DNA of 64,000 nucleotides from an uncultured Phycisphaerae bacterium (lineage in GTDB: Bacteria; Planctomycetota; Phycisphaerae; UBA1845; Fen-1342): assembly GCA_937928595.1 (NCBI GenBank), contig CALGJV010000026.1, forward strand, positions 106,930 to 170,929, written 5' to 3'. The translations under genes and the position numbers were made by a program. Below are positions 44,702 through 60,572 of this stretch, in pieces. The notes below the pieces were generated by a model. It had not been told where the DNA came from, ran no database searches, and worked only from the letters and a program-made list of their open reading frames with translations. Each line of letters opens with the position of its first letter. Within the stretch, counting starts at the first letter, position 1.

Positions 44702-46762
44702 TCAGTCCGCCGGGACGTCGCCGCAGACGTCGGCTTCGGCCGGGGCGGCGTGGCGGTGCCGCAGCGTGGGGAGCTGCGTCACGTGCCAGGCCCGCAGGGC
44801 CTCGGCCACGGTCCAGGCCTGGGCCGGGCAGCCGTTGGGCGCGAACGGCTCCTCCGCGTCGAAGATCTCACCGAGGCTGCCGAACCCGTACGTCCAGAGC
44901 TGCCCCAGGAGGGGCTCGAGCAGCAGCCGCGCGCGGCGCGCGTCGCGGTGCAGGTTCCAGTGGGCCTGCACGAAGAACCCGAGCAGCCAGCCCCAGGCCG
45001 TGCCCTGGTGATACGCCTCGTCCCGCTCGACCGGACCGCCGCGGTAGTGCCCCCGGTAACCCGGTTCGCCGGGGGCCAGGCTGCGCAGGCCGAACCACGT
45101 GAGCAGGCGCCGCTCGCAGGTCTGGACCACCTGCTCCCGCTGCTCGCGGGTCAGCGGGCTGTGCGACAGCGCGACGGCCAGAATCTGATTCGGGCGCAGC
45201 CGGGCGTCGTCGCCGTGCGGGCCGTCGAGCACGTCGAGGCACGCGTGCCGGCGCGGGTTCCAGAAGCGCGTGAACGAAGCCCGCGTCCGCTGCGCCAGGC
45301 GCACGTACTCGTCGCTGGACTGCTCCATCAGCTCGGCCAGCCGGGCGAGGTTGCACACGGCGTCGTACCACAGGGCGCTGAGCTCGACCGGCTTGCCCGT
45401 CCGGGGGGTGACGGCCCGGTCGCCGATCTTCGCGTCCATCCAGGTGAGGTTCAGCCCCGGCTCGCCGGCTACGACGAGGCCGTCGTCGCCGACGCGGATC
45501 TGGTGCACGGTGCCGCGGCGGTACCAGTTAACGATCTCGCGCATCAGCGGGAACAGCTCGCGCAGCACGGCCATGTCGGCCGTCGCGCGGAAGTACTGGT
45601 CGATGGCCCACAGGTACCACAGGGTCGCGTCGGCGGTGTGGTACTCCGGGCGACCCGGACCGTCCGGGAAACGGTTCGGAATCAGCCCCTGCTCCACGTA
45701 CCCCGCCCAGGTCCGCAGGATCTCGCGCGCCAGCTCGTAGCGGCCCGTGCACAGCGTCAACCCCGGCAGCGCGATCATCGTGTCGCGCCCCCAGTCCGTG
45801 AACCACGGATACCCCGCGATCACCGTGTGCCCGCCGGGAGCATCCGGCAGGGGGCGGACCGCGATGAACTGGTCGGCGGCGAGGACGAGCCGGCGCACCG
45901 GGGCCGGCGTATGCTGCGGGTCGACGTGCGTTGCGCGGGCCCACTCGGTGATCCGCGCGCCCGCGCGCTCGCGCGCCCGCTCCAGCGCCCCGGTGAGGGG
46001 CACGGCGGCGGCCTCGTCGCCGGCGGCCAGCGCGATCGTCACCGGGCGGCCCGGCCGGAGCGTGATGCGGCCCAGGCCGACGCTGCAATGGTCCTCCACG
46101 TGGTCGAAGCCGCGGTCGCGCTCGATCGGCAGGAGGAACCCGCGGTACCACGTGTGATCGACGCGCCATTGCACGGCGGCCCCGTCGGCCGCGGCGCCAC
46201 GCGCGTGCAGGCTCGTCCGCGCGCCCTCCGGGCGGACCGTCAGGCGCCCGTCCTGCACATGAATCTGGAAGCCCGGCCCCGCCCCGGTCGTCAGGTAGTG
46301 GTAGTCGCGGTAGTTGGCCAAGAGCCGGCCCTCGAGCTCCACCGGGCCCGCGCCGTGCACCTCGTAGCGCAGGAACGTGACGTTGCGGCCGTGTTCCATC
46401 CAGACCTGCTTCACCAGCACGCGGCCGGCGACCTCGTATGTCCACGTCGGGATGCCGTCCATCAGGTCAAAACGCCGCAGGTAGCGCCAGCCGGCCGGGT
46501 CGGCCACGCCGTCGCGCCAGAGGCTCGTGTAGATCAGGTGCTCGTCGTCCCCCACGGTGAGCGCCTCGTCGAAGCGGGCCGCCAGGAGCGTGCGGCCGGT
46601 GGGGGGGCGCAGCGCCGCCACGAGCAGGCCGTGGTAGCGGCGGGTCAGGGGGCCGGCGATGGTGCCGGAGGCGAAGCCGCCGAGGCCGTTCGTGACGAGC
46701 CATTCGCGGCGCAGCACGGCATCGAGGTCCTGGCAGATCCGCGTGGGCAAGTGCAAGTGCAT
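44702..46762 (-). CDS. Glycogen debranching enzyme (amylo-alpha-1,6-glucosidase type)
   Basis: 686 residues. The N-terminal beta-sandwich (EWLVTNGLGGFASGTIAG, TRRYHGLLVAAL) and the (alpha/alpha)6 catalytic barrel with YPWFTDWGRDTMIALPGL (catalytic acid region) and RPEYHTADATLWYLWAI are those of the bacterial GDE family. It hydrolyses alpha-1,6 branches in stored glycogen. ATG 46762 has GGGAG six bases upstream. It is the first gene of a minus-strand unit with nadE (50 bases downstream) and the homocysteine methyltransferase. Confidence 0.92.
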   Translation of the reverse strand: MHLHLPTRICQDLDAVLRREWLVTNGLGGFASGTIAGPLTRRYHGLLVAALRPPTGRTLLAARFDEALTVGDDEHLIYTSLWRDGVADPAGWRYLRRFDLMDGIPTWTYEVAGRVLVKQVWMEHGRNVTFLRYEVHGAGPVELEGRLLANYRDYHYLTTGAGPGFQIHVQDGRLTVRPEGARTSLHARGAAADGAAVQWRVDHTWYRGFLLPIERDRGFDHVEDHCSVGLGRITLRPGRPVTIALAAGDEAAAVPLTGALERARERAGARITEWARATHVDPQHTPAPVRRLVLAADQFIAVRPLPDAPGGHTVIAGYPWFTDWGRDTMIALPGLTLCTGRYELAREILRTWAGYVEQGLIPNRFPDGPGRPEYHTADATLWYLWAIDQYFRATADMAVLRELFPLMREIVNWYRRGTVHQIRVGDDGLVVAGEPGLNLTWMDAKIGDRAVTPRTGKPVELSALWYDAVCNLARLAELMEQSSDEYVRLAQRTRASFTRFWNPRRHACLDVLDGPHGDDARLRPNQILAVALSHSPLTREQREQVVQTCERRLLTWFGLRSLAPGEPGYRGHYRGGPVERDEAYHQGTAWGWLLGFFVQAHWNLHRDARRARLLLEPLLGQLWTYGFGSLGEIFDAEEPFAPNGCPAQAWTVAEALRAWHVTQLPTLRHRHAAPAEADVCGDVPAD

Positions 46763-46892
46763 GGCCGTCTCCCGGGGTGGAGCGCGGCGCCGCGCTCCCG
46801 CCTGGCACGCATTATTCACCGGCGGGGGCGGGCGGCACAGGGCGCGGCGCCGCGTTTGCTGGGTCGGCGGGGGGGCCGAGCGAGGGTCCGTT

Positions 46893-46921
46893 TTGGGCCG
46901 CGGCTCGCGATCTAGTAGAAT
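46893..46921 (+). promoter_or_regulatory. Promoter of the HTH-EIIA gene
   Basis: TTGGGC at 46893-46898 and TAGAAT at 46916-46921 are 17 bases apart. The -10 overlaps an in-frame ATG at 46920, which therefore cannot be the start; this supports the GTG at 46953. Confidence 0.5.
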
Positions 46922-46952
46922 GGTTGAAGCGCGCTGTACTGGGAGCCGTCCC

Positions 46953-47657
46953 GTGCCGTACCGCAACATGTCGCTGGAAGATCTCGCCCGGCACATCGGG
47001 ATGGACGCCCGCGTCGTGCGCAAGTGGGCGGAAAAGGGCAAGCTGCCGGGGCAGCTCGTCGGCGGGGAGTGGCGGTTCAACCGGGCGGCGATGCTGGACT
47101 GGCTCCAGCGCGAGATGCACTCCTTCGACGTCGAGCACATCCGCAATCTCGAGCAGGCGATGCGCGAGGGCGAGACCGACCGCCTGATCGCGGCGTACCT
47201 GCCGGTCGAGGCCGTCGAGATGAATTTGCACGCGCACTCGCGGGCGTCCGTCCTGCGCGAGCTCGTGCAGGTCGCCGAGCGCACGGGGCTCGTGTACGAC
47301 GCCGCGCAGATCGTGGACGCCCTCGAGCAGCGCGAAGCGCTCGGGCCCACGGCCCTGCCGCGGGGTATCGCGTTTCCGCACCCGCGGCGCCCGCTGGAGT
47401 ACGCCACGGCGGAGCCGCTGTTGTGCCTGGGACGGGTGCCGGCCGGCATCCCGTTCGGTGCGCCGGACGGAGGTCTGACGGACCTGTTCGTGCTGGTGAT
47501 CGCGACCGGCGAGAAGCTGCACCTCGGGCTGCTGGCGCGGCTGGCGATGATGTTCAACGGCGAGCTGCCGGACCTGCTGCGGGACGTGGATGACGCCGAG
47601 TCCGCGCTCAAGCTGATGCGGGCGCGCGAAGCGGCGGTGTTGGCGGCCGGCAAGTAA
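46953..47657 (+). CDS. DNA-binding protein with C-terminal PTS EIIA-like domain
   Basis: 234 residues. An excisionase/MerR-like helix-turn-helix (MSLEDLARHIGMDARVVRKWAEKG, GEWRFNRAAMLDWLQ; residues 6-55) is followed by a PTS fructose/nitrogen-type EIIA domain (from about residue 90). The phosphorylatable His is conserved in RGIAFPHPRRPLE, and VIATGEKLHLGLLARL is typical of PtsN-like proteins. Such a protein could bind DNA according to its phosphorylation state. GTG 46953 has GGGAG seven bases upstream. No PTS EI, HPr or permease gene is in the window, so a regulatory rather than transport role is likely. Confidence 0.8.
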   Translation: MPYRNMSLEDLARHIGMDARVVRKWAEKGKLPGQLVGGEWRFNRAAMLDWLQREMHSFDVEHIRNLEQAMREGETDRLIAAYLPVEAVEMNLHAHSRASVLRELVQVAERTGLVYDAAQIVDALEQREALGPTALPRGIAFPHPRRPLEYATAEPLLCLGRVPAGIPFGAPDGGLTDLFVLVIATGEKLHLGLLARLAMMFNGELPDLLRDVDDAESALKLMRAREAAVLAAGK

Positions 47658-48125: not shown

Positions 48126-48812
48126 CTACGCCTCCAGTGCCGTGACCAGCGCGACGCTCGCGGACGTACCCAGCCGGTCGGCGCCGGCGGCCAGCAGCGC
48201 GCGGGCCGTGGCCAGGTCGCGGATGCCGCCGGAGGCCTTCACGCGAATCGGCGCGGCGTGGCGCCGCAGCAGCGCGACATGCTCGACCGTGGCGCCGCCG
48301 GCCGGGTGGAAGCCCGTGGAGGTCTTCACGAAATCGGCCTGCGCCTCGGCGGTGCAGCGGCACCCGCGGATGATCTGCTCGTCCGTCAGGGCGCGGGTTT
48401 CGAGGATCACTTTGACCAGCACCGCGGCGTCCGTGCCCTTCGCGGCGTCCACCACGGCGGCGATGTCGCGCGTCACGGCGGGGTAGTCGCCGCCGAGCAG
48501 GGCCCCGAGATTCGCGACCATGTCGATCTCCCGCGCGCCCGCGCGGACCGCGAGCTGCGCCTCGTGGGCCTTGGTCGCCGTGGCCGCGGCGCCGAGCGGA
48601 AACCCGACGACCGTGGCGACGACCGTCGGCCGACCCGCCAGCCGCGCGACGCAGCGCGGCACCCAGTACGGGTTCACGCACGCGGCGAAAAAGCCCCACT
48701 GGACGCACTCCTCGCAGAGCCGGTCGATGGCGTCGGCCGTCGCCTCGGGCTTCAGCAGCGTGTGGTCGATCACACGGGCCAGAGCCGTGCGGGTGAGTGG
48801 TGTCGCGAGCAA
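48126..48812 (-). CDS. deoC: Deoxyribose-phosphate aldolase
   Basis: 228 residues of the class I aldolase family: VIDHTLLKPEATADAI, the Schiff-base lysine in DFVKTSTGF, and the relay lysine in IRVKASGGIRDL. It splits deoxyribose 5-phosphate into acetaldehyde and glyceraldehyde 3-phosphate in deoxynucleoside degradation. The start is TTG 48812 with a strong AGGAGG seven bases upstream. Its position at the end of the ESCRT-like cluster seems incidental. Confidence 0.94.
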   Translation of the reverse strand: MLATPLTRTALARVIDHTLLKPEATADAIDRLCEECVQWGFFAACVNPYWVPRCVARLAGRPTVVATVVGFPLGAAATATKAHEAQLAVRAGAREIDMVANLGALLGGDYPAVTRDIAAVVDAAKGTDAAVLVKVILETRALTDEQIIRGCRCTAEAQADFVKTSTGFHPAGGATVEHVALLRRHAAPIRVKASGGIRDLATARALLAAGADRLGTSASVALVTALEA

Positions 48813-48899: not shown

Positions 48900-50648
48900 C
48901 TACGCCGCCGCCGGGCGCGTCACGATGCACGCATCCTGAAGGGTGTGACCCAGCAGCCGCGCCGCCGGCACCTCCACCGGCCGACGCTCGGCCGCCGTCG
49001 CCGACAGCACCAGCAGCCGGTCCCGAAGCGTGTTCACCCCCAGGATCAGGTCGTCGCACGCCCACGCGCGCCGCACCGGCACCGCCGCCGCCAGGAGTCG
49101 CGCGGTCACGCCCTCGTCGCCGTAAATCGCCAGCACGCCGTCCGCGCCCGCGGGGATGACCAGCTCCACCAGGTCGTCCCACGTCCGCGCGTGCACCGTC
49201 TCGATGCTCTGCCCGCCGCGGTACCGCACCTGCCAGATGTTCGGCGACTGCCAGTCGTCTTCCAGAACGAACCCTTCCGACGTCGCCACGTACACCGTTC
49301 GGCCCAGCACCGCCACGTCGTGGACCGACCCCCGCCCGACGCTCAGCGACCGCACCGCCGTGCCGTCGGGGCCGAACACCCGCACCTCGTCGTCGGCCGC
49401 CAGCAGCACGTGCTCGCCCTCGGCCGTGCGGACCGCGCGAATCGTCTTCGGCCGGCCGCCCTCCGGCCGCAGCAGCGCCCGCGGCGTCCCCGGGATGCCG
49501 AGCGGCCACTGCCAGGCCCCGAGCTGCGAGTGCGTCGCGATCAGCGTGTCGCCCGCGATCGCGGCGGCGTTGAAACCGCTCGTCGGCGGCGGGGCGTCGG
49601 GCACCGGCCAGCGGCGCTCGATCGCGCGGGTCGTCGCGTGGACCGCCCACACGCCGGTCGCCGCGCCCACCAGCAGCCAGTCGCGCTGCCGGTCGTACGT
49701 CACCGACCGGAGCCCGCCCAGATCCGGCGGCAGAGCCAGCCGCGCCGCGACTTGCCCCGGGGCCGCCGGGTCGAACCAGGCGCACTCGCTTCCGGCAACC
49801 GTCACGATCGCGGCCGCGACGTTCCGGTCCGGCGTCAGCCGCCACAGGCTCTCCAGCAGCCGGCCGCGCTCCCCCGGCGACAGCACCGGCAGCAGCTCGC
49901 GCCAGCGGAGGCTGCCAGCGGCGGCGGCCTCGGCCTTGAGCTTGCCGAGGATCTCGCCCAGGTCGTCGAGTCGGCGGCGGGTGGCGGTGCGTGCGGCGGC
50001 CTCGAGCGCCGCGCGGGCCGCGACTTCCTGCGCGCGGCGGGCCGTCTGGCGCTCGAGCGCGGCCTGCGCCTGGTAGGTGGGGCTGGCGCAGGCGACGCGG
50101 CCCAGGCGCTCGAGCACCAGGCCGCAGTCGAACAGGAACTTCTCGAGATCCGCCGCGAGCTGCGCTTGCAGCGGCTCGCGGACGTCCTCGTCCACCAGCC
50201 GCGCGGCGGGGCGCGCGGCCAGGAACCGCCGCACGCCGGCGGTGGCGCCGGCCTCGGCGATGCGCTGCGCCAAGCGCGCCAGCGTCAGCGTGTCCTCGTC
50301 GAGCAACGTGCGATGCAGCGCGGCCAGCTCGTCGTCCCGCGGCATCCAGCGGACCAGCAGCTCGACGTCGGCGTGCACTTCGTGGTTGTCGGCCGAGCGG
50401 CCGACGGCCGGCGCGACCGGCACCGTGATGGCGCGGTTGCGGACGAGGACGAGCGTGTCCTCGCGGTCCGGGGCCGGATCCTCGCCGGACGGGACGAACC
50501 GCCGGCGGCCGTCGGGGCGCTGCACCAGCGCCATCCAGGCGTCCGGGATGAGCGTGCCGCGCAGCAGGCTCCGCGGCCACTGCGCGCCGCGGATGCGCAG
50601 CGCCACGACCTGCGGGTCGGCGAGCGTCTTGAGCACATCCAGGATCAT
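48900..50648 (-). CDS. SPFH-like domain, coiled coil and beta-propeller protein
   Basis: 582 residues. Residues about 15-190 show the pattern of an SPFH/band-7 domain: short strands (TLIPDAWMALVQRPDGR; DTLVLVRNRAITVPV; VHADVELLVRW) and a helix followed by the tail GLVLERLGRVACASPTY, as in flotillin-type proteins. A coiled coil of about 60 residues (QAALERQTARRAQEVAARAA) leads to a C-terminal region of about 300 residues made of repeated four-stranded units (LLVGAATGVWAVHATTRAI, LLAADDEVRVFGPDGT, VYVATSEGFVLEDDW), a likely beta-propeller. No signal peptide is seen. It lies 45 bases after the TM2-like gene and is the last protein of the ESCRT-like cluster; an SPFH membrane scaffold fits that setting. 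I do not know a named family with this domain order. Confidence 0.65.
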   Translation of the reverse strand: MILDVLKTLADPQVVALRIRGAQWPRSLLRGTLIPDAWMALVQRPDGRRRFVPSGEDPAPDREDTLVLVRNRAITVPVAPAVGRSADNHEVHADVELLVRWMPRDDELAALHRTLLDEDTLTLARLAQRIAEAGATAGVRRFLAARPAARLVDEDVREPLQAQLAADLEKFLFDCGLVLERLGRVACASPTYQAQAALERQTARRAQEVAARAALEAAARTATRRRLDDLGEILGKLKAEAAAAGSLRWRELLPVLSPGERGRLLESLWRLTPDRNVAAAIVTVAGSECAWFDPAAPGQVAARLALPPDLGGLRSVTYDRQRDWLLVGAATGVWAVHATTRAIERRWPVPDAPPPTSGFNAAAIAGDTLIATHSQLGAWQWPLGIPGTPRALLRPEGGRPKTIRAVRTAEGEHVLLAADDEVRVFGPDGTAVRSLSVGRGSVHDVAVLGRTVYVATSEGFVLEDDWQSPNIWQVRYRGGQSIETVHARTWDDLVELVIPAGADGVLAIYGDEGVTARLLAAAVPVRRAWACDDLILGVNTLRDRLLVLSATAAERRPVEVPAARLLGHTLQDACIVTRPAAA

Positions 50649-50693
50649 GGCACGCCCACTCAGAGACAGCGTAACCTACGCGGACGGCGGCGA

Positions 50694-50897
50694 CTACCAG
50701 CGCGCTGCGTGGCTGTTGAAGCGCTCAACCATCTGCGGCAGGACGATCAGGTCGTACACCAGCCCGATGCCCAGCAGTCCCCAGGTCACGAGCCACAGCA
50801 ACCCCGTCAGCCACTTGCCGAGATAGAACCGGTGCACACCGGCCACGCCGACGATACACAGCGCCCACAACCCGTATGCCGTGCCCACCGAACGCAT
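50694..50897 (-). CDS. TM2-domain-like small membrane protein
   Basis: 67 residues with two membrane helices: AYGLWALCIVGVAGVHRFYLGK and LLWLVTWGLLGIGLVYDLIVLP. The short loop with GxHRFYLG between them is the TM2 signature; the second helix ends in an aspartate-containing stretch. ATG 50897 has AGGGAG five bases upstream. It lies between the Vps4-like ATPase and the SPFH-like protein genes on the same strand. Confidence 0.8.
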   Translation of the reverse strand: MRSVGTAYGLWALCIVGVAGVHRFYLGKWLTGLLWLVTWGLLGIGLVYDLIVLPQMVERFNSHAARW

Positions 50898-51004
50898 ACC
50901 GGCTCCCTTCTGCCGCGCTTCGCGGCCCCCGCACCGGAGCACGCGCTCGGGCGCGAACCTCCGCGGGCGGCGCTGGCCGCCCGTCCGGGCCTCCGGCGCG
51001 GCCG

Positions 51005-52126
51005 TCAGTTTTCCGCCGCCCACTGCTCGAACCTCGCCAGACCGCGGCGGTTCACCGACGGCGGCTGTTCGGCGATCACGGCCAGCACATCCGCCAACGT
51101 GATGTTACGCGCTTCGCCCCCGGCCACCGATTCCAAAAACGGACGTTGTGCGGAACGCTCGGCCAAGGCCTTGATGTCGGCCCCGCTGTAGCCGTCCGTG
51201 GCCTCCACCAGTTGGGCGAAATCCACATCATCCGACAGCGGACGCTTGCCGAGGTAGATCTCGAACAGCTTGAACCGGGCCGGCGCGTCGGGCAGCGGCA
51301 CGTAGATCTTCGCGTCGAGCCGGCCGGGGCGGAGCATGGCCGGGTCCAGGCTCCAGGGCTCGTTGGTGGCGCCGAGGAACATGAGCGCCCGGCCGGCCTG
51401 GCGGTCGAAGCCCTCGAGCTCCTGGAGGATCTGGGGAACGACGCGGGTCATGACGGTGGACTGGCTCTCGCGGCGGCGGGGGACGAGGGCCTCGACCTCG
51501 TCCATGAAGATGACGGCCTTGGGCTCGGCCTTGGCGGCGTCGAAGAGCTTCTTGACGTTCTGTTCGGCCTCGCCGACCCACTTGCTCATGATCTGGGCGG
51601 GGCTGATGACGAACATGGTGGCGTCGAGCTCGCAGGCGATGGCCTTGGCGAACATGGTCTTGCCGGTGCCGGGCGGGCCGAAGAGCAGCACGCCGCCGCC
51701 GACGCTGATACCGTACTTCCGGGCCAGCTCCGGGTGCTGAAAGGGGTACAGCATCTTGAGGCGGATCTCCTCCTTCACCTCGTCGAGGCCGGCGATGTCG
51801 TCGAACCGAACGTTGGGCTTCTCGCGGACGATCCAGTCCTCGGCCCGGGCGCCGCTTTCTTCTTCATCGCGGGCCCGCGCCCCGCGCGGGCGGGCGCCAG
51901 CCGGCCCGGCCGCGGCCCGGCGGTCGCAGTCCTTCGCGAGTTCGATCAGCTCTTTGGCGTACGCCTCCTGGTCGGCGCGCTGGGCGGGGTCGCGGTTGGC
52001 CTCGGCCAGCTCGATCATGCACTCGGCGGCCTGGATGAGGTAGGGCCGGGCGGCGACGTAATCGCCGGCGCGCAGAGCGGCGAGGCCCTTGTCCTTCAGA
52101 CGCAGAAAAGTCGCAAAGGTGGCCAT
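51005..52126 (-). CDS. Vps4-like AAA ATPase with N-terminal MIT-like domain
   Basis: 373 residues. Residues 5-70 form a three-helix unit with the MIT pattern (KGLAALRAGDYVAARPYLIQ, then YAKELIELAKDCDRR). A charged linker (71-98) leads to REKPNVRFDDIAGLDEVKEE (101-120), close to the EKPNIRWNDVAGL of eukaryotic Vps4. The AAA core has Walker A GPPGTGKT (150-157), pore loop SKWVGEAEQNVKKLF (181-195), Walker B VIFMDEVE (205-212), sensor 1 GATNEPW (252-258) and RPGRLD (266-271). After DGYSGADIKAL the end, AEQPPSVNRRGLARFEQWAAEN, resembles the Vps4 C-terminal helix. ATG 52126 is preferred; TTG 52144 with GGAG upstream is possible. It is encoded 83 bases after an ESCRT-III-like gene. The family likeness is seen by eye and is strong; the function, disassembly of the filament, is inferred. 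Confidence 0.85.
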   Translation of the reverse strand: MATFATFLRLKDKGLAALRAGDYVAARPYLIQAAECMIELAEANRDPAQRADQEAYAKELIELAKDCDRRAAAGPAGARPRGARARDEEESGARAEDWIVREKPNVRFDDIAGLDEVKEEIRLKMLYPFQHPELARKYGISVGGGVLLFGPPGTGKTMFAKAIACELDATMFVISPAQIMSKWVGEAEQNVKKLFDAAKAEPKAVIFMDEVEALVPRRRESQSTVMTRVVPQILQELEGFDRQAGRALMFLGATNEPWSLDPAMLRPGRLDAKIYVPLPDAPARFKLFEIYLGKRPLSDDVDFAQLVEATDGYSGADIKALAERSAQRPFLESVAGGEARNITLADVLAVIAEQPPSVNRRGLARFEQWAAEN

Positions 52127-52209
52127 AGCTCTAGTGCTGCCCAATCCTCACTCCGCCCCGAATACGCCGTCGCGAGGGCGGCCGGCGGCCCCGGGGCGGG
52201 GTGCCCGCC

Positions 52210-52821
52210 TTACTTCGTCTCCTTCTGCCCCGCTTCGCCCTTCAGGGCGTTCAGCTCCGCCCGCAGCGCGCTCATCTGCTGGGCCTCGCGGGCCTGGTCC
52301 ACCTGCTCTTCCGCCGCGATCAGCCGGTCGATCTCGTCGTCCGTGATCGCCTCGGCCGGCGCCCGCGATACGTCGGCCGCGGCCGTGTCCTCCAACCCCT
52401 CGAGGAACATGGTCATGCGCTCCTCCATGGTCTGCGACTGGGCCATGGCTTTCTCCCAGTCCAATTGCGTCTGGGACAGGTTGGTGTCGCCGTAGAGGCG
52501 GCTGACCTCGGAGGCCATGGTTTTCATCGCAGCCGCGAAGTCGGCCGTGGCCTCGGCCTGCCGCTTGATGAGCAGGGCGTTCTTCACGGCCAGGAGCTGG
52601 CGCTCGAGCATCTTCTTGATCGTGGCGGTTTTCTTGAGCGAGTTGCGGATGAACTGGTAGCTCGCCTGGTCGCCGATCTGGCGGGCTTGACGGGCGTTCT
52701 TGACGAACTCGTCGGTGAACTTGTTCTGCTCGGCGATGGCCTTCTCGATCCGCCGGATACCCTGGCGGATCTTCATGTCGCGCTCGATGCGGCGTTCTTC
52801 GCTGGATTTGAAGAGACCCAT
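52210..52821 (-). CDS. ESCRT-III-like (Snf7/CHMP-type) helical protein with MIM1-like motif
   Basis: 203 residues, almost entirely helical. The start MGLFKSSEERR resembles that of CHMP proteins. Helix 1 (about 8-49, basic) and helix 2 (51-92) form a hairpin; FAAAMKTMASEVSRLYGDTNL and QLDWEKAMAQSQTMEERMTM (95-140) match the helix 3/4 pattern of CHMP1-3 proteins. An acidic helix (ITDDEIDRLIAAEE, 159-172) corresponds to helix 5, and the C-terminus has LRAELNALK (186-194), a LxxELxxLK version of the MIM1 motif LxxRLxxL(K/R) that binds MIT domains. The next gene encodes an MIT-type AAA ATPase. No signal peptide or membrane helix is present. PspA/Vipp1, the known bacterial relatives, are longer-hairpin proteins without this motif. 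Confidence 0.75.
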   Translation of the reverse strand: MGLFKSSEERRIERDMKIRQGIRRIEKAIAEQNKFTDEFVKNARQARQIGDQASYQFIRNSLKKTATIKKMLERQLLAVKNALLIKRQAEATADFAAAMKTMASEVSRLYGDTNLSQTQLDWEKAMAQSQTMEERMTMFLEGLEDTAAADVSRAPAEAITDDEIDRLIAAEEQVDQAREAQQMSALRAELNALKGEAGQKETK

Positions 52822-52852
52822 GATTGCACTCGCTGGGGGCCCAGGTCACAAA

Positions 52853-52877
52853 GTCACAAGGTGACAAAGTCACAAAG
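52853..52877. repeat. Left inverted repeat of the four-helix-bundle cassette
   Basis: The 25 bases GTCACAAGGTGACAAAGTCA-CAAAG match the reverse complement of 53362-53386 at 23 of 25 positions. Additional CACAAAGT units precede it (52844-52852). The stop codon of the four-helix-bundle gene lies inside it. Confidence 0.6.
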
Positions 52878-53343
52878 CAACGCGGCCGGCGCGGTCGCGG
52901 CCGTCGGATGTCGCGGGTCGATCGCGGCTTCCGTGCGTCTTGACCCCCGGGAACTCCGCACGCGTGCGCTGGAGGACCGCGATGTAGGCCGACAGCATGC
53001 GCGAACAGGCTTCACAGCGGGCCAGCAACCAGGCTGATGCGGTCTCGTCAAGCAGGCCGGCGTCACGGGCCAGCGTGACGTGGCTGCGCAGCTCACCGGC
53101 GGAGCCCTTCGCGATGTAGCAGAACTCGATGTGCTGCTTCCGCGTCCCGCGCTCATAGCCTTCAGCGATGTTGCCCGCGATGCTGGTGGCGGCCCGCTTC
53201 ATCTGGGTGGCCAGGGCCGGATCGTTGCGCAGCTTCTGTGTCGCGGCCGCGCGGTATACGCCCCGACTCAATTCGCGGGCCGCTTGCCACACCTTGAGAT
53301 CCTCGAACCTCCGAATCACACAGTCACCCCGCTTCTCTCCCAT
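52870..53343 (-). CDS. Four-helix-bundle protein (TIGR02436/23S rRNA IVS type)
   Basis: 157 residues of the widespread four-helix-bundle family: FEDLKVWQAARELSRGVYRA, TQMKRAATSIAGNIAEGYER, KQHIEFCYIAKGSAGELRSH and a fourth helix with AYIAVL. The C-terminus (about 30 residues) is variable. Its function is not known, although relatives are encoded in insertions of 23S rRNA genes. It interrupts a run of ESCRT-like genes and is bounded by inverted repeats, so it is likely a small mobile or recently gained element. ATG 53343 is used; GTG 53319 is a family-like alternative. Confidence 0.85.
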   Translation of the reverse strand: MGEKRGDCVIRRFEDLKVWQAARELSRGVYRAAATQKLRNDPALATQMKRAATSIAGNIAEGYERGTRKQHIEFCYIAKGSAGELRSHVTLARDAGLLDETASAWLLARCEACSRMLSAYIAVLQRTRAEFPGVKTHGSRDRPATSDGRDRAGRVAL

Positions 53344-53361
53344 GGGCGCGGCACCTGGCCA

Positions 53362-53386
53362 CTTTGTGCCTTTGTCACCTTGTCAC
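53362..53386. repeat. Right inverted repeat of the four-helix-bundle cassette
   Basis: Complement partner of 52853-52877 (23 of 25 positions). It starts a few bases beyond the stop codon of the gene ending at 53393 and runs up to the start region of the four-helix-bundle gene. Confidence 0.6.
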
Positions 53387-53392
53387 TCCCGG

Positions 53393-53998
53393 TCACTCCG
53401 CCGCCGCGCCGCGCTCCCGCAGCCGCTTCTCGGCCTCGTCGTACGCCGTGGCCGGGTCGCGGATCAGCCCCGCGTCCATGTCGTTCCAGATCTTCAGCAG
53501 CTCCTCGCCCGCGGGCGACAGCCCGGTCGCCCCCGCGTCCGCCGCGGCCCCCAGCCGCAGGATCTCATCCAGCCGCTCCTGGTACACCTCCGACGTGATC
53601 TGGTCGTTCTCGATCAGCCGCGCGATCACCGCCAGGTCGCCCTCCCGGATCGCCACCCGCCCCGCGCCGGACAGCGCCGCCGACGGCGCGTTCTCCCGCA
53701 GCATCCGCAGCCGCGACACCGTCAGCAGCTCCTTGCTGCGGATGTTGAGCTGCCGCGCAATCATCATCTGCTCGGTGTGCAGCAGGTCGTACTGCTGCGC
53801 GTACGTGCGGCGCAGCTCGGGCGTCTTTTCCCCCGCCCCCTGCGCGACGAGCTGTTGCTTCTCCGCGGCCAGCTTGCGGACTTTCGCCAGCAGCCGGTCG
53901 CGGTCATTCGTCAGGAGCATTTCCTGCGCCCGGAGTTCCGCGGCCGACATGGTCGCGAGGGTCTTGCGCCGCGTGGTCAGCCATTCGAAGAAGTTCAT
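53393..53998 (-). CDS. Second ESCRT-III-like helical protein
   Basis: 201 residues, helical throughout. It begins MNFFEWLTTRRKTL, a short amphipathic start as in ESCRT-III proteins, followed by a long helical hairpin: SAAELRAQEMLLTNDRDRLL...KLAAEKQQLVAQG and ELRRTYAQQYDLLHTEQMMI...IRSKELLTVSRLRML. A hinge (NAPSAALSGAGRVAI) leads to shorter helices (DLAVIARLIENDQITSEVYQ, GEELLKIWNDMDAG) and a charged end (DEAEKRLRERG). The hairpin lengths and the glycine between them match Snf7-type folds, but primary similarity is weaker than for the 52210 protein. There is no clear MIM motif. It lies in the same gene series; without structure prediction it could also be an unrelated coiled-coil protein. Confidence 0.5.
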   Translation of the reverse strand: MNFFEWLTTRRKTLATMSAAELRAQEMLLTNDRDRLLAKVRKLAAEKQQLVAQGAGEKTPELRRTYAQQYDLLHTEQMMIARQLNIRSKELLTVSRLRMLRENAPSAALSGAGRVAIREGDLAVIARLIENDQITSEVYQERLDEILRLGAAADAGATGLSPAGEELLKIWNDMDAGLIRDPATAYDEAEKRLRERGAAAE

Positions 53999-54346
53999 CG
54001 GCAGCTCTCAGCGGTCAGTCGTCGGCGTTCGGCCGACAGCCCTCGGCTCTCCGTCGTCAGCGTCCGGCGCTCGGCCCTCAACCGCCGGCGACCTGCTCTC
54101 AGCCATCAACCGTCCGCGATCTGCTCTCAGCCGTCCGGCATCCGCTTGCCGCCGCCGGCGCGGCGTCCGGACCAGGACCACTGCTCAAGCGCAGTGGCAC
54201 ATGTGCCGGCGAGCCGTGGCACATGCACCAGCGAGCCGCGGCACCGGCGTGCGAACGTTCGAAGGCGATGGCACCGGCGACTCATCCTCAATCCCTCAAC
54301 TCTGATTCCCTCAGTCCCTTGCTTCGTGCCTTCGTGCCTCTCGTCA
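53999..54346. repeat. Low-complexity repeat cluster between ESCRT-like genes
   Basis: 348 bases without a gene. Three repeat types follow each other: CTGCTCTCAGCC-type units (54004-54140), two copies of a 22-bp unit TGGCACATG...GCGAGCCG (54194-54238) and, next to the stop codon at 54347, TCAATCCCTCA and CTTCGTGCCTTCGTGCC units (54287-54337). The last types recur at 23510-23621. Confidence 0.6.
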
Positions 54347-55765
54347 TCACCCCGTCTCCGGCCGGGCCTTGCTCTTCTCCGCAGCCGGCGGTGCCGGGGC
54401 GGGGGCCCGCTCCGCGGCGGGGGCGGGCGCGGCGGGGGCCGGCGCGGCGGCCTGCTGCTCGGCGGCCGCCTGTTTGAATTCCGCCAGAATCGCCGCTTCC
54501 TCCTCATCCTGGAGCGGCGTGGCGGCGCCGACCTCGATGCCCGCGGCCAGGTCGGCGTTGGCGGCCAGTTCGGCCATCATCTGCTCGGCCTCGGCCGCGA
54601 CCTGCGTGAGCTCCTCGGCCTTGGGCAGCGCGAGCTGCTTGCCCTGCTGGGCGAGCGTCAAGTTGTGGATGTGCGTGCCGAGGATGTCGATCTGCTGCGA
54701 CAGCAGCGTGGCCTGAGCCCGCACGCGCCGCAGCTCGCGCCGGGAGCGGACGAGCCGGCCGGCGATCTGCTTGCGCTCAACGTCGGTCTTCGCGGCCGCG
54801 CCCCGCTCGACGGCCTCGCGCTCGTCCTTCTCGAGCGTGTCGAGGCGCTGATCGAGCTCGTGGCGCTGCTGTTCGAGCCGCACGCGCTGCGCGGTCAGGG
54901 CCCGCACCTGCTCGGCGGGCGTCGGCCTCAGCCGCAGCAGTTTCCGGATCCAGCTCCGCAGACTCATGGTCTGACCCTCGTCCGCCAGCGGGCTGCGGCA
55001 CACGTGCGCCACGCCCTCGTGGACCACCGTCATCAGCCGCGGATCGTGCCGGCAAGCCTGCCGGAGCAGCGGTTCGACCTGGGCCCGCGGCAGGCCCAGC
55101 CGCTCGGCAAGCTCCGGCACCGACAGCCCGCGCGCTTCGAGCTCCGCGCCGCTGCGCTCCAGATGATACAGCAGGCGGCGGAGGCGTTCGTCCTCGGTCT
55201 CCAGCTCGAACAACGCCGCCCAGCGGGTTTTTCGCAACGCCGCGGGCAGCGTCACGTCCCAGCCGCCGTCGGCCCGGCCGCCGAGCAGCACGAGCGTCGG
55301 CCCGCCGCCCGCATGCACCAGCGCCTGGGCGTCCGGCGTGAAACCCGTCGCGCTCGCCAGCGCGACCGCCGTCGGGCGCTCGCGGCGCGGCAGGAGCTCG
55401 TAGCGGGCCAGCGCGTCCAGCACGAGCTCGCGCCCGACCGGCCCCGGCGGCTGCCCGGCGACGAGCGCTTCGATCGGCGCGAGCGCCTGGGCCCGCAGCC
55501 GGGCGCAGGTGCGCCGCAGCGGTCCGAAGACGCGGCGCTCGAAGCGCAGCTGCACGGCCCGCGTGCCGGGCAGCTCGTCCAGCAGCCCGCGGTCGTAGCG
55601 CGCCAGGCGCGTGAGCGTCGCGCGGACACCGTCGATCCCGTCCGGCAACGCCTCGATCACGACGCGGTCCGCCGGCAGCTTGCCGTCAATGAGCTGCTGC
55701 GCCCGGGCGCGCAATTGGCGGAGAAACCGGTCTTCAAACTGCCGGTGGCGACTGCGTTCGTCCAT
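54347..55765 (-). CDS. Winged-helix region fused to an ESCRT-III-like domain (CHMP7-like architecture)
   Basis: 472 residues in one frame. Residues 1-200 form a helical and strand-rich region (RQLRARAQQLIDGKLPADRV, VALASATGFTPDAQALV). About residues 205-255 look like a winged helix (LSVPELAERLGLPRAQVEPLLRQACRHD split across helices, then the wing LMTVVHEGVAHV). From residue 267 (MSLRSWIRKLLRLRP) an ESCRT-III-like section begins: amphipathic start, hairpin (LTAQRVRLEQQRHELDQRLD; RKQIAGRLVRSRRELRRVRA...LLSQQIDIL), PKAEELTQVAAEAEQMMAEL and an acidic helix (EEEAAILAEF), then a Pro/Ala-rich tail. The order winged helix then Snf7 domain is that of eukaryotic CHMP7. GAGGG seven bases before the internal ATG at 54967 raises the possibility that the ESCRT-III part is also made alone. 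It lies five bases after the zinc-ribbon gene. Confidence 0.65.
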   Translation of the reverse strand: MDERSRHRQFEDRFLRQLRARAQQLIDGKLPADRVVIEALPDGIDGVRATLTRLARYDRGLLDELPGTRAVQLRFERRVFGPLRRTCARLRAQALAPIEALVAGQPPGPVGRELVLDALARYELLPRRERPTAVALASATGFTPDAQALVHAGGGPTLVLLGGRADGGWDVTLPAALRKTRWAALFELETEDERLRRLLYHLERSGAELEARGLSVPELAERLGLPRAQVEPLLRQACRHDPRLMTVVHEGVAHVCRSPLADEGQTMSLRSWIRKLLRLRPTPAEQVRALTAQRVRLEQQRHELDQRLDTLEKDEREAVERGAAAKTDVERKQIAGRLVRSRRELRRVRAQATLLSQQIDILGTHIHNLTLAQQGKQLALPKAEELTQVAAEAEQMMAELAANADLAAGIEVGAATPLQDEEEAAILAEFKQAAAEQQAAAPAPAAPAPAAERAPAPAPPAAEKSKARPETG

Positions 55766-55770
55766 CGCTC

Positions 55771-56046
55771 TCAGCCTGACAGCGGCTGTCCACACCGGGC
55801 GCAGAAGCGCGCGTTGCCGGCGTTCAGGTATCCGCATCGCGGCCGCGAGCAGAGCCGAGCGAAGGCCGGGGCGCCGGCGCGCCCCGCGCTGGTCGGCAGC
55901 GCCGGCCCGATGAGCCGCGCGGCGCTGCGCAGCACGCGCCGCGCCAAGCGCACGATGGCCGCCAGGATCGTGATGAAGAACGCCACGAACCCCAGCAGCA
56001 ACACGCCGGCGAACCACGCGATCACGATGCCGTCGGCGAGGATCAC
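55771..56046 (-). CDS. Membrane-anchored zinc-ribbon protein
   Basis: 91 residues. One N-terminal membrane helix (VIAWFAGVLLLGFVAFFITIL), a basic stretch and a C-terminal zinc ribbon (CSRPRCGYLNAGNARFCARC). ATG 56046 lies six bases after the kinase stop. A single-helix anchor with a cytoplasmic zinc ribbon could recruit partners to the membrane. The zinc ribbon resembles those at the end of the kinase. No named family. Confidence 0.75.
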   Translation of the reverse strand: MILADGIVIAWFAGVLLLGFVAFFITILAAIVRLARRVLRSAARLIGPALPTSAGRAGAPAFARLCSRPRCGYLNAGNARFCARCGQPLSG

Positions 56047-56052
56047 GGCCCG

Positions 56053-57156
56053 TCACTCCGTCGGCGCGAGCAGCGCGCTGCCGCAGAAAATGCAGTAGCG
56101 GTCGCCCCGCGCCGGAAAGCCGCCGCAGCTCGGACAGCGGCGCACCCGCTCCACGACCTGACGGCCGCACTGCGTGCAGAACTGGTCGTCCGGCTCCAGC
56201 GGCGTCCGGCAGCTCGGGCAGGCGGTCGCGCGCGGCTTCAGCGGCGCGTTCGGCAGCGGCGGCGGGCGGTTTGGACCGGCGCCGACCCCCGCGGGCAGGG
56301 GCGGCAGTCGGCCGGCACCGCTCAGGCGAGCGTCGAGGTCCGCCAGCACGGCGGTTGCGCTCTCGTAGCGACGATCCGCGCGGGCGTACAGCCGCCGAAA
56401 CACCTCGTCGAGCGCGGGCGGCACCTCGGCCCGGATGGTGCTCGGCAGCTCCGCGCCGGCCGGCCGGTCGCCGGTCAGCAGCTCGAACAGCATCACGCCG
56501 ATCGAGTACAGGTCGCTGCGGGCGCTGGGACGGCCTTCCCCTTCGCGCAGCTCGGGGGCCATGTACGCCAGCGTGCCCGTGAGGGCCGCGCTCTGCTCGT
56601 TGCGCTCGAGCGAGGCCGACTGCATGACCAGCGACCGGACCGTGTCGGCATCGCCCGCCCCCAGGCCGAAATCCACGACCTTGACATCATCGACGGTCAG
56701 CGCCGCGAGCGGCCGCCCGTCCAGGTTCAGCAGCACGTTGCCGGGCTTGAGATCGCGGTGCACGATGTTGGCCTCGTGCGCGACGGTCATGGCCCGCAGC
56801 AGCCCGCGCAGCACCGTGACGGCCGTGTCGATCGCCACGCCGTGCGGATGCTCGGCCAGCACCTGGCGCAGCGACGGCCCGCGCACCAGCTCCATCACGA
56901 GGTACGGCACGTCGGCGTACGGATCGAGCCCCAGCACGCGCACGATGTTCGGGTGCCGCAGGCCGTGGACCATCACCCCTTCCTGTCGCAGGAACCGGAC
57001 GTATTCCGGCTCCGTCGGCAGCTTGATCGCGACGTGTTCCTTGTCCCAGACGTGGTGGCGGGCACGCCACACCTCGCCGAACGTACCCCGCCCGATGCAC
57101 TCCTCGAGCAGGTACTCGCTGACCCGCGTGCCGGACCGGTATTTCGTGTCGCCCAT
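56053..57156 (-). CDS. Ser/Thr protein kinase with C-terminal zinc ribbons
   Basis: 367 residues. The kinase has the glycine loop IGRGTFGEVW (21-30), the catalytic lysine in HVAIKLP, NIVHRDLKPGNVLLNLDG (catalytic loop), VDFGLG (DFG) and TLAYMAPE, with all key residues, so it should be active. After a Pro-rich linker the C-terminus carries two zinc ribbons (CPSCRTPLEPDDQFCTQCGR; CPSCGGFPARGDRYCIFCG). There is no membrane helix or sensor domain. It is the second gene of the ESCRT-like series, upstream of the zinc-ribbon membrane protein, and may control filament assembly by phosphorylation; that is inference from context only. Confidence 0.9.
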   Translation of the reverse strand: MGDTKYRSGTRVSEYLLEECIGRGTFGEVWRARHHVWDKEHVAIKLPTEPEYVRFLRQEGVMVHGLRHPNIVRVLGLDPYADVPYLVMELVRGPSLRQVLAEHPHGVAIDTAVTVLRGLLRAMTVAHEANIVHRDLKPGNVLLNLDGRPLAALTVDDVKVVDFGLGAGDADTVRSLVMQSASLERNEQSAALTGTLAYMAPELREGEGRPSARSDLYSIGVMLFELLTGDRPAGAELPSTIRAEVPPALDEVFRRLYARADRRYESATAVLADLDARLSGAGRLPPLPAGVGAGPNRPPPLPNAPLKPRATACPSCRTPLEPDDQFCTQCGRQVVERVRRCPSCGGFPARGDRYCIFCGSALLAPTE

Positions 57157-57187
57157 GTTCTCCGCCCGCCTCGGCGCCGCCGCGGCC

Positions 57188-57598
57188 TCAGCCGCCGGCC
57201 CTTTCGGCCAGGTACTCCGCCACCAGGTAATTATAAGTCCCGACCACCGCGAGGGCTGCGAGCGATGCCAGCCACGCCCAGCCGCCGGACGGCCATCCGC
57301 CCATCAGGATCAGGCCCAGCCCGGCGTTGATCAGCGTCAGCACCGCGATCAGGATCGCGCCGGCCCAGTTCGAGCCGATCTCCAGCAGCCGCGTCACGAA
57401 CAGCCGCGTGACCCACGGCAGGGCGGCCGCCACCACCACCCAAAGGATCGTGCGCCCGATGCCGCCGAGAATCGCACCGCGGGTGCCGGCGTCCATGCGA
57501 TAGACCGCGACGGCCAGCACGAGCAGCAGCCCCGCCGCGACCCACGTCAGCACCTTTTCGCCGAGGCGACCCAGCAGGCCGCCGCCACCGCTTTCCAT
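57188..57598 (-). CDS. Polytopic membrane protein of unknown function
   Basis: 136 residues with four hydrophobic helices (VLTWVAAGLLLVLAVAVY, TILWVVVAAALPWVTRLFV, AGAILIAVLTLINAGLGLIL, WLASLAALAVVGTYNYLV). ATG 57598 has GGAG upstream at a short spacing; a TTG at 57622 is a weaker alternative. It is the first gene of the minus-strand series running into the kinase and ESCRT-like genes, 31 bases ahead of the kinase. Confidence 0.7.
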   Translation of the reverse strand: MESGGGGLLGRLGEKVLTWVAAGLLLVLAVAVYRMDAGTRGAILGGIGRTILWVVVAAALPWVTRLFVTRLLEIGSNWAGAILIAVLTLINAGLGLILMGGWPSGGWAWLASLAALAVVGTYNYLVAEYLAERAGG

Positions 57599-57770
57599 CG
57601 TCTCCAAGTGTAATGGATACAAAGGGTAACGCGGCTACAAAAAGGGACGTTGTCCGGAATCCGCGCGTTTCCGGGCCGCGACGACGCGGTCCTCGAAGGG
57701 ATTCGCTCGCCCCCCGGCGGGATTCGCTTGCTCCGGACCGCCGCGGCCGAAAAATGGCCGGCGGGGCGGC

Positions 57771-60572
57771 TCAGGCGATGAGGTTCACCAACCGCCCCCG
57801 GACGATCACGACGCGCTTCAGCGGCCGGCCGGCCACATCGCGGGCGGCGTTGGGGCAGGCCTGCGCAGCGGCCGTGATTTCGGCGTCGCTGGCGTTTGCG
57901 GCGATCGTGATGCGGTCGCGGACCTTGCCGTTGACCTGCACGGCCATCGTGACGACCTCGTCGCGGGTGAGCGCCTCGTCGTAGGTCGGCCACGGCTCGC
58001 GGGCCAGCGGCTGCGGGTGGCCGAGACGCGCCCACAGTTCTTCGGCGATGTGCGGGGCGAAGGGGGCGAGAATCAACAGGAAGCGCTCGACCTGCCCGCG
58101 GCCGAGGGTCGCGGCGCGGCCGGCCTCGTTGACCCAGACGATCATCTGGGCGATGGCGGTGTTGAAGGCGAACTTCGGGATGTCCTCGGTGACTTTGCGG
58201 ATGGTCTTGTGCAGCAGCCGCTCGAGGTCGGGGTCGGGTGCGTCGGCCAACCGCGGGTTGAGCGGGGGCGCGGCGCCGTCCTCGGCCGGAACGGGCACGA
58301 CCAGCCGCCAGACCCGCTGGAGGAAGCGGTGGACGCCGATGATGTCGCGCGTGTTCCAGGGTTTGCTGGCCTCGAGCGGCCCCATGTACATCTCGTAGAG
58401 CCGCAACGTGTCGGCGCCGTACTCGTGGATGATCGCATCCGGGTTGACGACGTTCCGCAGCGACTTCGACATCTTCTCGACCGCGGCGGAGAGGCGCTCG
58501 CCCGTCTGCTTGTGGTAGGGAACCTCCGTCCCCCCCTCTTCCGCGCGGAACTCGACCAGGTCGTGGGCCACGGGCACGCCGCGGCCGTCGCGGTAGGCGT
58601 ACGCCTGGATCATGCCCTGGTTGAACAGCTTCTGGAACGGTTCCGGCGTGGTGACGTAGCCGAGGTCGTAGAGCACCTTGTGCCAGAAGCGGGCGTACAG
58701 CAGGTGCAGGACCGCGTGCTCGGCGCCGCCCATGTACAGATCGACGCCGCCATGCTTGGGCGTGCCGTCCGGCCCGGCGCCGCCGAGCCAGTAGCGCTCG
58801 ACCTCCGGCGCGGCGAACGCCCGCGGGTTGCGGGGATCACAGAAGCGCAGGTAATACCAGCACGAGCCGGCCCACTGCGGCATCGTGTTCGCCTCGCGGC
58901 GATACGTCTGCCCGTCGCGCGCCAGCGTCAGCCAGTGCGTCGCGCGGCTCAGCGGCGTCTGCGGCTCGGCCTCGGGGTCGTCGCTGGCGTGCGGTCGGAA
59001 GTCCTCCATCTCGGGCAGCACCACGGGCAGCTCGCGCTCGTCCAGGGGCACGATGCGCCCGTCCGCGCGGTAGAGGATCGGAAACGGCTCGCCCCAGTAC
59101 CGCTGCCGCGAGAACAGCCAGTCGCGCAGCTTGTACTGCACCGTGCCTTCGCCCAGCTCGTGCTCTGCCAGCCAGGCCGTGATCCGCCGCTTGGCCTCCG
59201 GCGTCGGCAGGCCGTTCAGCACGCACTGCCCGGTGAAGTGCGGCTCGTCGTCCGGCGGGGAGTTGACCGCCACGCCGTCGTCCACGAAGCCCCGCCAGTC
59301 CGTCCCGGCCGGGGGCTGCACGACCTGGCGGACCGGCAGCCCGAACGTTTCGGCGAACTCCAGGTCGCGCGTGTCGTGCGCCGGCACCGCCATGATCGAG
59401 CCCGTGCCGTAGCTGATGAGCACGTAGTCCGCCACCCAGATCGGCACGAGCTGCCGGTTGACCGGGTTCACCGCGTACGCCCCCGTGAACACGCCGGTCT
59501 TGGTCTTCGAGTCGGCCGTGCGGTCAAGCTCCGATTTCTGCTGGGCCTGGTTCACGTACGCCCGCACGTCCTCGCGCCGCTCGGGCGTCGTGATGATCGG
59601 GACCAGCCGGTGTTCCGGCGCCAGCACGAGGTACGTCGCGCCGAACAGCGTGTCCGGCCGCGTCGTGAACACCCGGATCGTGCTCCCGGCGGCCGGTCCG
59701 TCGCCCACCAGGGCGAAATCGACGTACGCCCCCTCGCTGCGGCCGATCCAGTTGCGCTGCATCAGCTTGATCGGCTCGGGCCAGTCCAGCGCGTCGAGGT
59801 CGCGCAGCAGCCGGTCGGCGTATTCGGTGATGCGCAGCATCCACTGGCGCATCGGCCGGCGGTACACCGGGTGGTTGCCGCGCTCGCTGCGGCCCTCGTT
59901 CGTGACCTCCTCGTTGGACAGGACGGTCCCCAGCGCCGGGCACCAGTTCACGGGCACCTCGGCGAGGTACGCCAGCCGGTGCTCGGCACGGTACTCGTCG
60001 ATCGCGGCCTCGCCGCGGGCCGCGACCTCCGGCGGAATCGGCAGCTCCTCGATCGGCCGGGCGCGGCCGACGACCGCCCGCCCGCGTCGGTCAATCCAGC
60101 GGCACTCGGGGTCGTACCACGAGTCGTATATCTTCAGGAAGATCCACTGCGTCCAGCGGTAGTAGGACTCGTCGCACGTGGCCAGCTCGCGGTCCCAGTC
60201 GTACGACAGGCCGATCGCCTTGAGCTGCCGCGTGTACGTGGCGATGTTCTTCCGCGTCGTCTCACGCGGATGCACGCCGGTCTCGATCGCGTACTGCTCG
60301 GCCGGCAGGCCGAAGGCGTCCCAGCCCATCGGGTGCAGGACGTTGCAGCCCCGCATCCGCATGAACCGCGCGACGATGTCGGAAGCGATGTAACCGAGCG
60401 GGTGTCCCACGTGCAGCCCGGCCCCGGACGGGTACGGGAAGAAGTCGAGCACGTAGAACGGCGGGCGCTCGCTGCCGGGCTGTCCGGGGTTGGCCGCCCG
60501 GAACACGCCGCGCTCCTCCCAGACGCGCTGCCAGCGGGGCTCGAGCTCGTTGAAGTCGTAGCGGTTGTTCAC
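57771..60572 (-). CDS. leuS: Leucyl-tRNA synthetase
   Basis: 933 residues, a normal bacterial LeuRS. YPSGAGLHVGHPLGY contains the HIGH-type motif, KMSKSLRNVVNPD the KMSKS loop, and the CP1 editing domain has TTRPDTLFGATYLVLAPEH and GTGSIMAVPAHDTRD with the conserved Asp. It charges tRNA-Leu and removes mischarged amino acids. GTG 60572 has AAGGA ten bases upstream. It follows the SurA/PpiD-like gene by 66 bases and precedes the ESCRT-like cluster, with 172 bases between the leuS stop and the first cluster gene. Confidence 0.96.
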   Translation of the reverse strand: MNNRYDFNELEPRWQRVWEERGVFRAANPGQPGSERPPFYVLDFFPYPSGAGLHVGHPLGYIASDIVARFMRMRGCNVLHPMGWDAFGLPAEQYAIETGVHPRETTRKNIATYTRQLKAIGLSYDWDRELATCDESYYRWTQWIFLKIYDSWYDPECRWIDRRGRAVVGRARPIEELPIPPEVAARGEAAIDEYRAEHRLAYLAEVPVNWCPALGTVLSNEEVTNEGRSERGNHPVYRRPMRQWMLRITEYADRLLRDLDALDWPEPIKLMQRNWIGRSEGAYVDFALVGDGPAAGSTIRVFTTRPDTLFGATYLVLAPEHRLVPIITTPERREDVRAYVNQAQQKSELDRTADSKTKTGVFTGAYAVNPVNRQLVPIWVADYVLISYGTGSIMAVPAHDTRDLEFAETFGLPVRQVVQPPAGTDWRGFVDDGVAVNSPPDDEPHFTGQCVLNGLPTPEAKRRITAWLAEHELGEGTVQYKLRDWLFSRQRYWGEPFPILYRADGRIVPLDERELPVVLPEMEDFRPHASDDPEAEPQTPLSRATHWLTLARDGQTYRREANTMPQWAGSCWYYLRFCDPRNPRAFAAPEVERYWLGGAGPDGTPKHGGVDLYMGGAEHAVLHLLYARFWHKVLYDLGYVTTPEPFQKLFNQGMIQAYAYRDGRGVPVAHDLVEFRAEEGGTEVPYHKQTGERLSAAVEKMSKSLRNVVNPDAIIHEYGADTLRLYEMYMGPLEASKPWNTRDIIGVHRFLQRVWRLVVPVPAEDGAAPPLNPRLADAPDPDLERLLHKTIRKVTEDIPKFAFNTAIAQMIVWVNEAGRAATLGRGQVERFLLILAPFAPHIAEELWARLGHPQPLAREPWPTYDEALTRDEVVTMAVQVNGKVRDRITIAANASDAEITAAAQACPNAARDVAGRPLKRVVIVRGRLVNLIA

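Follow-up and report, generated by a model that had tools for sequence, protein, structure and literature searches.

Can a bacterial gene cluster encode both an ESCRT-III protein, as known from the endosomal sorting complexes required for transport (ESCRT), and a Vps4-type ATPase? According to Makarova et al. 2024 (PMC10936438), systems with both are confined to archaea and eukaryotes. The question is raised by a stretch of 64,000 nucleotides (hereafter the window) on contig CALGJV010000026.1 (GCA_937928595.1) of an uncultured Phycisphaerae bacterium, whose list of open reading frames (ORFs) includes ten closely spaced minus-strand genes running from 57622 down to 48900 in the order J-I-H-G-F-E-D-C-B-A (Table 1). 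Our analysis revealed that D is an ESCRT-III (Snf7) family protein and that its gene lies adjacent to, and tends to co-occur with, gene C for a Vps4-like ATPase. We consider it probable that D, C and their conserved partners form an ATP-driven membrane-remodelling machine.

The ESCRT-III protein D and the Vps4-like ATPase C

Searches with single window proteins against Pfam and NCBIfam gave nothing useful for D, F and J, so that family alignments were required. The sequence of D on its own had no PDB match at E≤10; the D family profile had seven at that threshold in the whole PDB, all of them to CHMP3, CHMP2A or Snf7. The D alignment (A1) comprises the window protein and 17 of 38 others, with L085 and L087, which have no recognised start, left out. 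Fourteen of 18 family members matched Pfam Snf7 (the matches listed for family members cover 25 of 45 families), and in the four phylum genomes where the Snf7 profile scored above cut-off it fell exactly on the D gene each time. The predicted model of D (helices at residues 7-49, 52-111, 115-147 and 161-199; pLDDT 87-90 over residues 11-80) has the long alpha1-alpha2 hairpin with following helices, and a Foldseek search with this model returned only ESCRT-III proteins at ranks 1-13, with Vipp1 and PspA, likewise helical members of the ESCRT-III superfamily, further down. The VIA structural list for D gives no clear answer when taken alone, and its rows leave unlisted families possible; helical proteins readily match coiled coils. 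The initial annotation, made from the sequence alone, had called this protein ESCRT-III-like, and PDB profile, Pfam Snf7 and Foldseek agree with it; neither profiles nor structure placed D in an unrelated coiled-coil family, ESCRT-III being all that the PDB profile search returned.

Among the proteins compared, D is closest in sequence to CHMP2A and CHMP3, which it matches by profile in both directions. With human CHMP sequences, the D profile scored 22.5 bits for CHMP2A and 17.6 bits for CHMP3, none of 100 shuffles being as high, and gave no score for CHMP1B, CHMP4B and CHMP6. Against database proteins (entered as -20 bits where no score was returned) the means were 20.7 bits for 120 of CHMP2A/CHMP3 type and -4.5 bits for 118 CHMP4, and two CHMP6 proteins lay at -10 to -12 bits. 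With the reverse A-type profile, 10 of the 54 D sequences scored higher than every shuffle, the mean being -0.3 bits; CHMP2 and CHMP3 are counted here as A-type and CHMP6 as B-type. Unlike eukaryotic CHMP2 and CHMP3, D has a tail without a strict MIM1 motif (none in 54 rows, representing 48 distinct sequences), and the MIM1-like tail claimed earlier is left with a relaxed form, L..xL..L[KR], found in 27 of the 54 rows (26 window-type rows and L056) or 26 of the 48 distinct sequences, versus 2.8% of shuffles.

The conserved start of the ATPase C lies at M7 of the listed ORF. C matches Pfam AAA (4e-38) and, in NCBIfam, CdvC with 230.9 bits (extending to the C-terminal helix) versus CDC48 with 234.7 bits. 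By sequence, C groups with Vps4 and apart from Cdc48 in a small and limited AAA tree (93/91, unstarred), the set of which was assembled without katanin or spastin; topology tests gave p-AU 0.40 for C+Vps4 and rejected C+Cdc48-D2 (p-AU 0.026), so that the ATPase does not fall in the Cdc48 group there. The VIA structural search of C ranked Metallosphaera Vps4 first; this list scarcely tests residues 1-90, and statements on the N-domain do not rest on it. C carries the pore-loop and sensor motifs of eukaryotic Vps4, from which it differs in lacking the insert preceding the C-terminal helix and in reading RPGR where Vps4 rows read RRF. It also lies near an ESCRT-III gene, one of the features by which Vps4 is recognised in PMC10936438. 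The Vps4_C profile matched 30 of 31 C family members at E≤10 (best 1.1e-6), and window C reached 21.2 bits, marginally under the cut-off of 21.3; as a marker of Vps4 this profile was dropped, since p97 D2 also passes (25.9 bits). A paralogue, C', is present at L063, L056, L057, L068, L071, L167, L170 and L173 and reads ATNRPW(D/E)(L/I)D and then SRF(E/D)K. It is nearer to eukaryotic Vps4 than C is in this stretch, and some loci have both C and C'.

The initial annotation had described the ATPase as Vps4-like with an MIT-type N-terminal domain, of which the Vps4-like AAA part was borne out by tree and VIA search and the MIT identity stays putative. The N-domain is a three-helix bundle in the AF2 model (pLDDT mostly >90), and the best full-domain PDB match of its profile was 2mpk (E 0.003), the MIT domain of Saprolegnia chitin synthase 1 (PMC8851075). 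Designed TPR proteins outscored 2mpk through summed short repeats, and hhalign gave 80.8% for TPR (over 26 columns) versus 1.5% for MIT. The eukaryotic Vps4 MIT profile itself found 2w2u, a crenarchaeal MIT domain, only at E 0.044 in the PDB and matched TPRs too, so that sequence separates the MIT and TPR folds poorly. A Pfam MIT scan was uninformative, with matches in 204 of 294 phylum genomes and 8 of 14 controls.

Spread and gene neighbourhood

Of 61 relatives (the window's own genome counted), 50 have D, one of them as a fragment of 26 residues; full-length matches are 62-88% identical. D also occurs in 55 of the 294 phylum genomes, among which the window's own is the only one of its class. 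The protein database holds 2789 homologues of D at E≤0.001. From the 124 confirmed loci of a named scan, 80 were retained, 75 of them titled Planctomycetota and three without a group name. Two loci, L125 (labelled Alphaproteobacteria) and L165 (Gemmatimonadaceae), have a planctomycete-type D and are probably mislabelled metagenome-assembled genomes.

Only loci whose sequence extends 7 kb or more to either side of D entered the count of neighbours, which was made on the strand of D and up to 7 kb from it; this left 20 of 20 loci in the window's order, 12 of 20 in other classes and 36 of 80 named loci; the named and unnamed sets overlap in some genomes (e.g. L074, L131), and the label C includes C'. 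At the order level F, G and I each accompany D at 19 of the 20 loci, C and A at 15, J at 14, H at 11 and B at three. The named loci gave 33 of 36 for both I and G, 32 for F, 27 for C, 24 for J, 23 for A, 20 for H, five for E and two for B. Across the 12 loci of other classes, C or C' is present at all, A at six, G at five, F at four, I at three and J, H, B and E at none; several of these loci have a pair of F-like genes and both ATPases, C and C'. The gene order J-I-H-G-F-D-C-A is mostly conserved within the window's order, the linkage of D and C with G, F, the SPFH-like A and the Ser/Thr kinase is conserved, and the clustering exceeds chance. E, which sits between F and D, occurs at two of the 20 order-level loci and may be a passenger.

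The association also holds at the level of genomes. C was found at E≤1e-90 in 34 of the 294 genomes, 31 of which have D (Fisher 1.4e-23), and at E≤1e-60 in 46, of which 32 have D (Fisher 1.9e-17), neither value being corrected for kinship; six candidates were scored per genome, and weaker copies may escape. At 1e-90, 24 genomes with D have no C; 16 of these belong to one family, f29, and each of the six f29 loci fetched has a C'-type ATPase. Where both genes could be located (32 genomes), they lie within 4 kb of each other in 22 and on separate contigs in 10. In G111, from another family of the same class, a Snf7-profile match falls in an ORF overlapping the start of a C-like ATPase. At L190, likewise in another family of that class, an ESCRT-III-like gene (1996-2652; 218 aa from an internal ATG, with an RLxxL tail) overlaps the start of a C-like ATPase gene (2649-3785), possibly a minimal two-gene version.

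The helical proteins F and G and the remaining genes

By profile alignment, F is homologous to the helical half of G (hhalign 96.2%, E 2.6e-9); neither gave a significant hhalign match with D. F had no direct ESCRT-III match in profile comparisons, and its profile met only Atg16 (0.073) and phosphorylase (0.1) in the PDB. The helical half of G had 17 PDB matches, mostly designed coiled coils and including CHMP4b (0.061) and CdvB (0.1). Its profile scored 3.9 and 9.9 bits for CHMP6, a mean of -0.2 bits (maximum 7.7) for CHMP4 and -8.9 bits for CHMP2/3. The reverse CHMP6 profile, built from three sequences, placed 5 of 26 G helical halves above all shuffles; the CHMP4 and combined B-type reverse profiles placed none of the 26. 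This CHMP6-like signal is weak and lies in G, not in F. The sequences suggest that D, as an A-type protein, may be paired in the cluster with a B-type subunit, a pairing described for Asgard archaea and eukaryotes in PMC11804906. Of the three ESCRT-III-like proteins named by the initial annotation, D thus stands, G retains a weak likeness to CHMP6, and F is left with its homology to G only.

The winged helix proposed ahead of the helical half of G was not recovered above threshold, as the Pfam HTH (helix-turn-helix) matches of this region (E 0.007-0.035) lie under the cut-off, and the same applies to the SPFH assignment of A, with Band_7 at E 7.8e-4 and 20 bits versus a cut-off of 23.6. ORFs of other classes match only the first half of G or only its helical half, both kinds being present at L173, and G thus appears to be a fused gene in the window's order. 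The alignments A2 (31 rows), A3 (37), A4 (35), A5 (28) and A7 (26) are chosen subsets, and A7 omits L150 and L162.

Table 1. Genes of the cluster, with coordinates in the window.
Gene	Position	Strand	Description
A	48900..50648	-	Weak SPFH/Band_7 region followed by a coiled coil and by repeats of propeller type (last two by eye)
B	50694..51023	-	TM2-domain protein (Pfam TM2 2.5e-12); rare at other loci
C	51005..52126	-	Vps4-like AAA ATPase: predicted three-helix N-domain (putatively MIT-like), linker, AAA domain, C-terminal helix
D	52210..52821	-	ESCRT-III protein, CHMP2A/CHMP3 nearest among those compared; tail MIM1-like, not strict MIM1
E	52870..53343	-	23S rRNA-intervening-sequence (IVP) four-helix-bundle protein (Pfam 1.9e-29); occasional insert
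F	53393..53998	-	Helical protein, homologue of the C-terminal half of G
G	54347..55768	-	N-terminal region with weak HTH/winged-helix matches, ESCRT-III-like helical half, Pro-rich tail
H	55771..56046	-	Small; hydrophobic N-terminal half (by eye), C-terminal zinc ribbon
I	56053..57156	-	Ser/Thr protein kinase with C-terminal double zinc ribbon (Pfam Pkinase 1.4e-35, DZR 1.8e-7)
J	57188..57622	-	Polytopic membrane protein (by eye)

The ORFs named by the initial annotation were all found on the minus strand where it had placed them; its inventory had omitted E, and the end of the cluster was extended to 57622 and the ATPase start moved. The genes are separated by 2-83 bases, except for an overlap of 19 bases between C and B and a gap of 348 bases between G and F, and the cluster is flanked by leuS (57771-60572) and a deoC-like gene (48126-48812), both named by eye from their translations. 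J had no significant family match in the Pfam search, and the Zn_Ribbon_1 match of H (2.6e-5) lies marginally under the cut-off. Elsewhere in the window, a plus-strand ORF (46659-47657) looks by eye like a fusion of an HTH domain with one resembling PTS EIIA.

Proposed function and alternatives

Judged from archaeal ESCRT loci, a regulated membrane-remodelling machine appears to be the best reading of this cluster. The archaeal systems (Main clade, Halo_FHA, Meth_adaptin; CdvB/CdvC; PMC10936438) likewise have an ESCRT-III gene beside one for a Vps4-type ATPase, and their loci also contain winged-helix proteins, Ser/Thr kinases, SPFH proteins and zinc ribbons. Unlike them, the cluster described here is bacterial, an HTH-like region is fused ahead of a helical half, the MIT domain is putative, and no CdvA, adaptin, FHA or ubiquitin part was noticed (no one-by-one search was made). 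In such a machine D, F and G would polymerise, followed by recruitment, disassembly by C and a membrane event. The N-terminal half of G and the SPFH-like A may place or nucleate the polymer, and the three-helix N-domain of C would bind a C-terminal tail and pull subunits out, a removal that would drive constriction or scission. Kinase I, together with J, H and B, may set the timing, and the machine could serve to form vesicles or compartments, to repair the envelope or to complete division. Only tentatively do we go further and propose a full bacterial ESCRT under kinase control, with CHMP2/3-like A-type subunits, CHMP6-like B-type subunits (one of them with an ESCRT-II-like winged helix) and one or two Vps4 ATPases that bear MIT domains. 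In Planctomycetota without FtsZ, such a system would sever or shape membranes.

A link between Snf7 and AAA+ proteins in bacteria has a precedent, as bacterial PspA/Snf7 proteins with AAA+ neighbours in some operons were described by Ravi et al. 2024 (PMC11237479). The arrangements in that paper differ from the one here: next to the Vps4-like genes of bacteria a TPR/6TM gene has taken the place of snf7, and the Snf7/PspA-AAA+ operons include ABC transporter and OmpA parts. Planctomycetes are unnamed in its main text. Our literature search, which covered few subscription papers and no preprints, found no description of a planctomycete ESCRT-III/Vps4 cluster.

PspA and Vipp1 are known bacterial members of the ESCRT-III superfamily and act in membrane repair. 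An envelope-stress system of their kind, in which D would coat and mend damaged cytoplasmic membrane and C, as its AAA partner, would recycle D with no scission, is rather unlikely, since D is nearer to CHMP2A/CHMP3 and Snf7 than to PspA/Vipp1 and is adjoined by a Vps4-like ATPase. The AAA+ neighbours of PspA/Snf7 in bacteria (PMC11237479) and the SPFH protein that accompanies PspA in some loci (PMC10936438) would suit such a system; the winged-helix, kinase and SPFH-like neighbours recall archaeal ESCRT loci instead. The genome of the window has no PspA match at E≤0.01 (nine of 14 controls exceed the cut-off), so that D could fill this role there, yet three of ten D-bearing genomes have PspA above cut-off elsewhere. 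PspA_IM30 (PF04012) was not listed for window D in the Pfam search, and none of the 25 rows at E≤1 in a scan of those ten genomes fell on D, which goes with Snf7 and never with PspA_IM30.

Marginally less likely again is that the cluster substitutes for FtsZ as the constriction machine of these Phycisphaerae. Cdv performs constriction in Sulfolobus, and FtsZ above cut-off was found in none of the 294 phylum genomes (10 weak matches) and is absent from 60 of the 61 relatives, in which full-length D is well preserved at the identities given above. The sole FtsZ match among these relatives (G307:C302:1267-2226) comes from a genome with 8% contamination and is likely a contaminant. According to PMC6952346, Phycisphaerae divide much like binary fission without FtsZ, the driver being an open question, and membrane division and remodelling in FtsZ-less Phycisphaerae is a stated open question there and in PMC5147048. 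However, 239 of the 294 phylum genomes lack D and these too are without FtsZ, so that the cluster is not a general planctomycete divisome. Apart from the window's own, the 55 genomes with D include none of its class, D is missing in 11 of the 61 relatives, and none of the cluster's genes was recognised as a known division gene. The link to budding and endomembranes drawn in the initial annotation is weakened by the same absence of D and by the binary-fission-like division of Phycisphaerae (PMC6952346), and budding was not adopted as a function. Envelope stress and FtsZ replacement are both narrower forms of the membrane-remodelling machine, and their odds therefore overlap with it.

A protein quality-control operon, with coincidental coiled coils beside a Cdc48-like unfoldase, is quite improbable, because although C has its best-scoring match with Cdc48/p97 in PDB sequence searches and Foldseek and helical proteins readily match coiled coils, a crenarchaeal Vps4 query also ranks p97 straight after its own kind, C+Cdc48-D2 is rejected and the D profile meets ESCRT-III alone in the PDB.

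An ESCRT-III/Vps4 pair in many bacterial genomes bears on the question of when ESCRT arose, and the cluster bears on whether the membrane complexity of planctomycetes has a dedicated engine. If the full bacterial ESCRT proposed above were true, both the A/B split of ESCRT-III and the partnership with Vps4 would extend beyond archaea and eukaryotes. For the Phycisphaerae themselves, the cluster is a concrete candidate for how some FtsZ-less members may remodel or divide their membranes.

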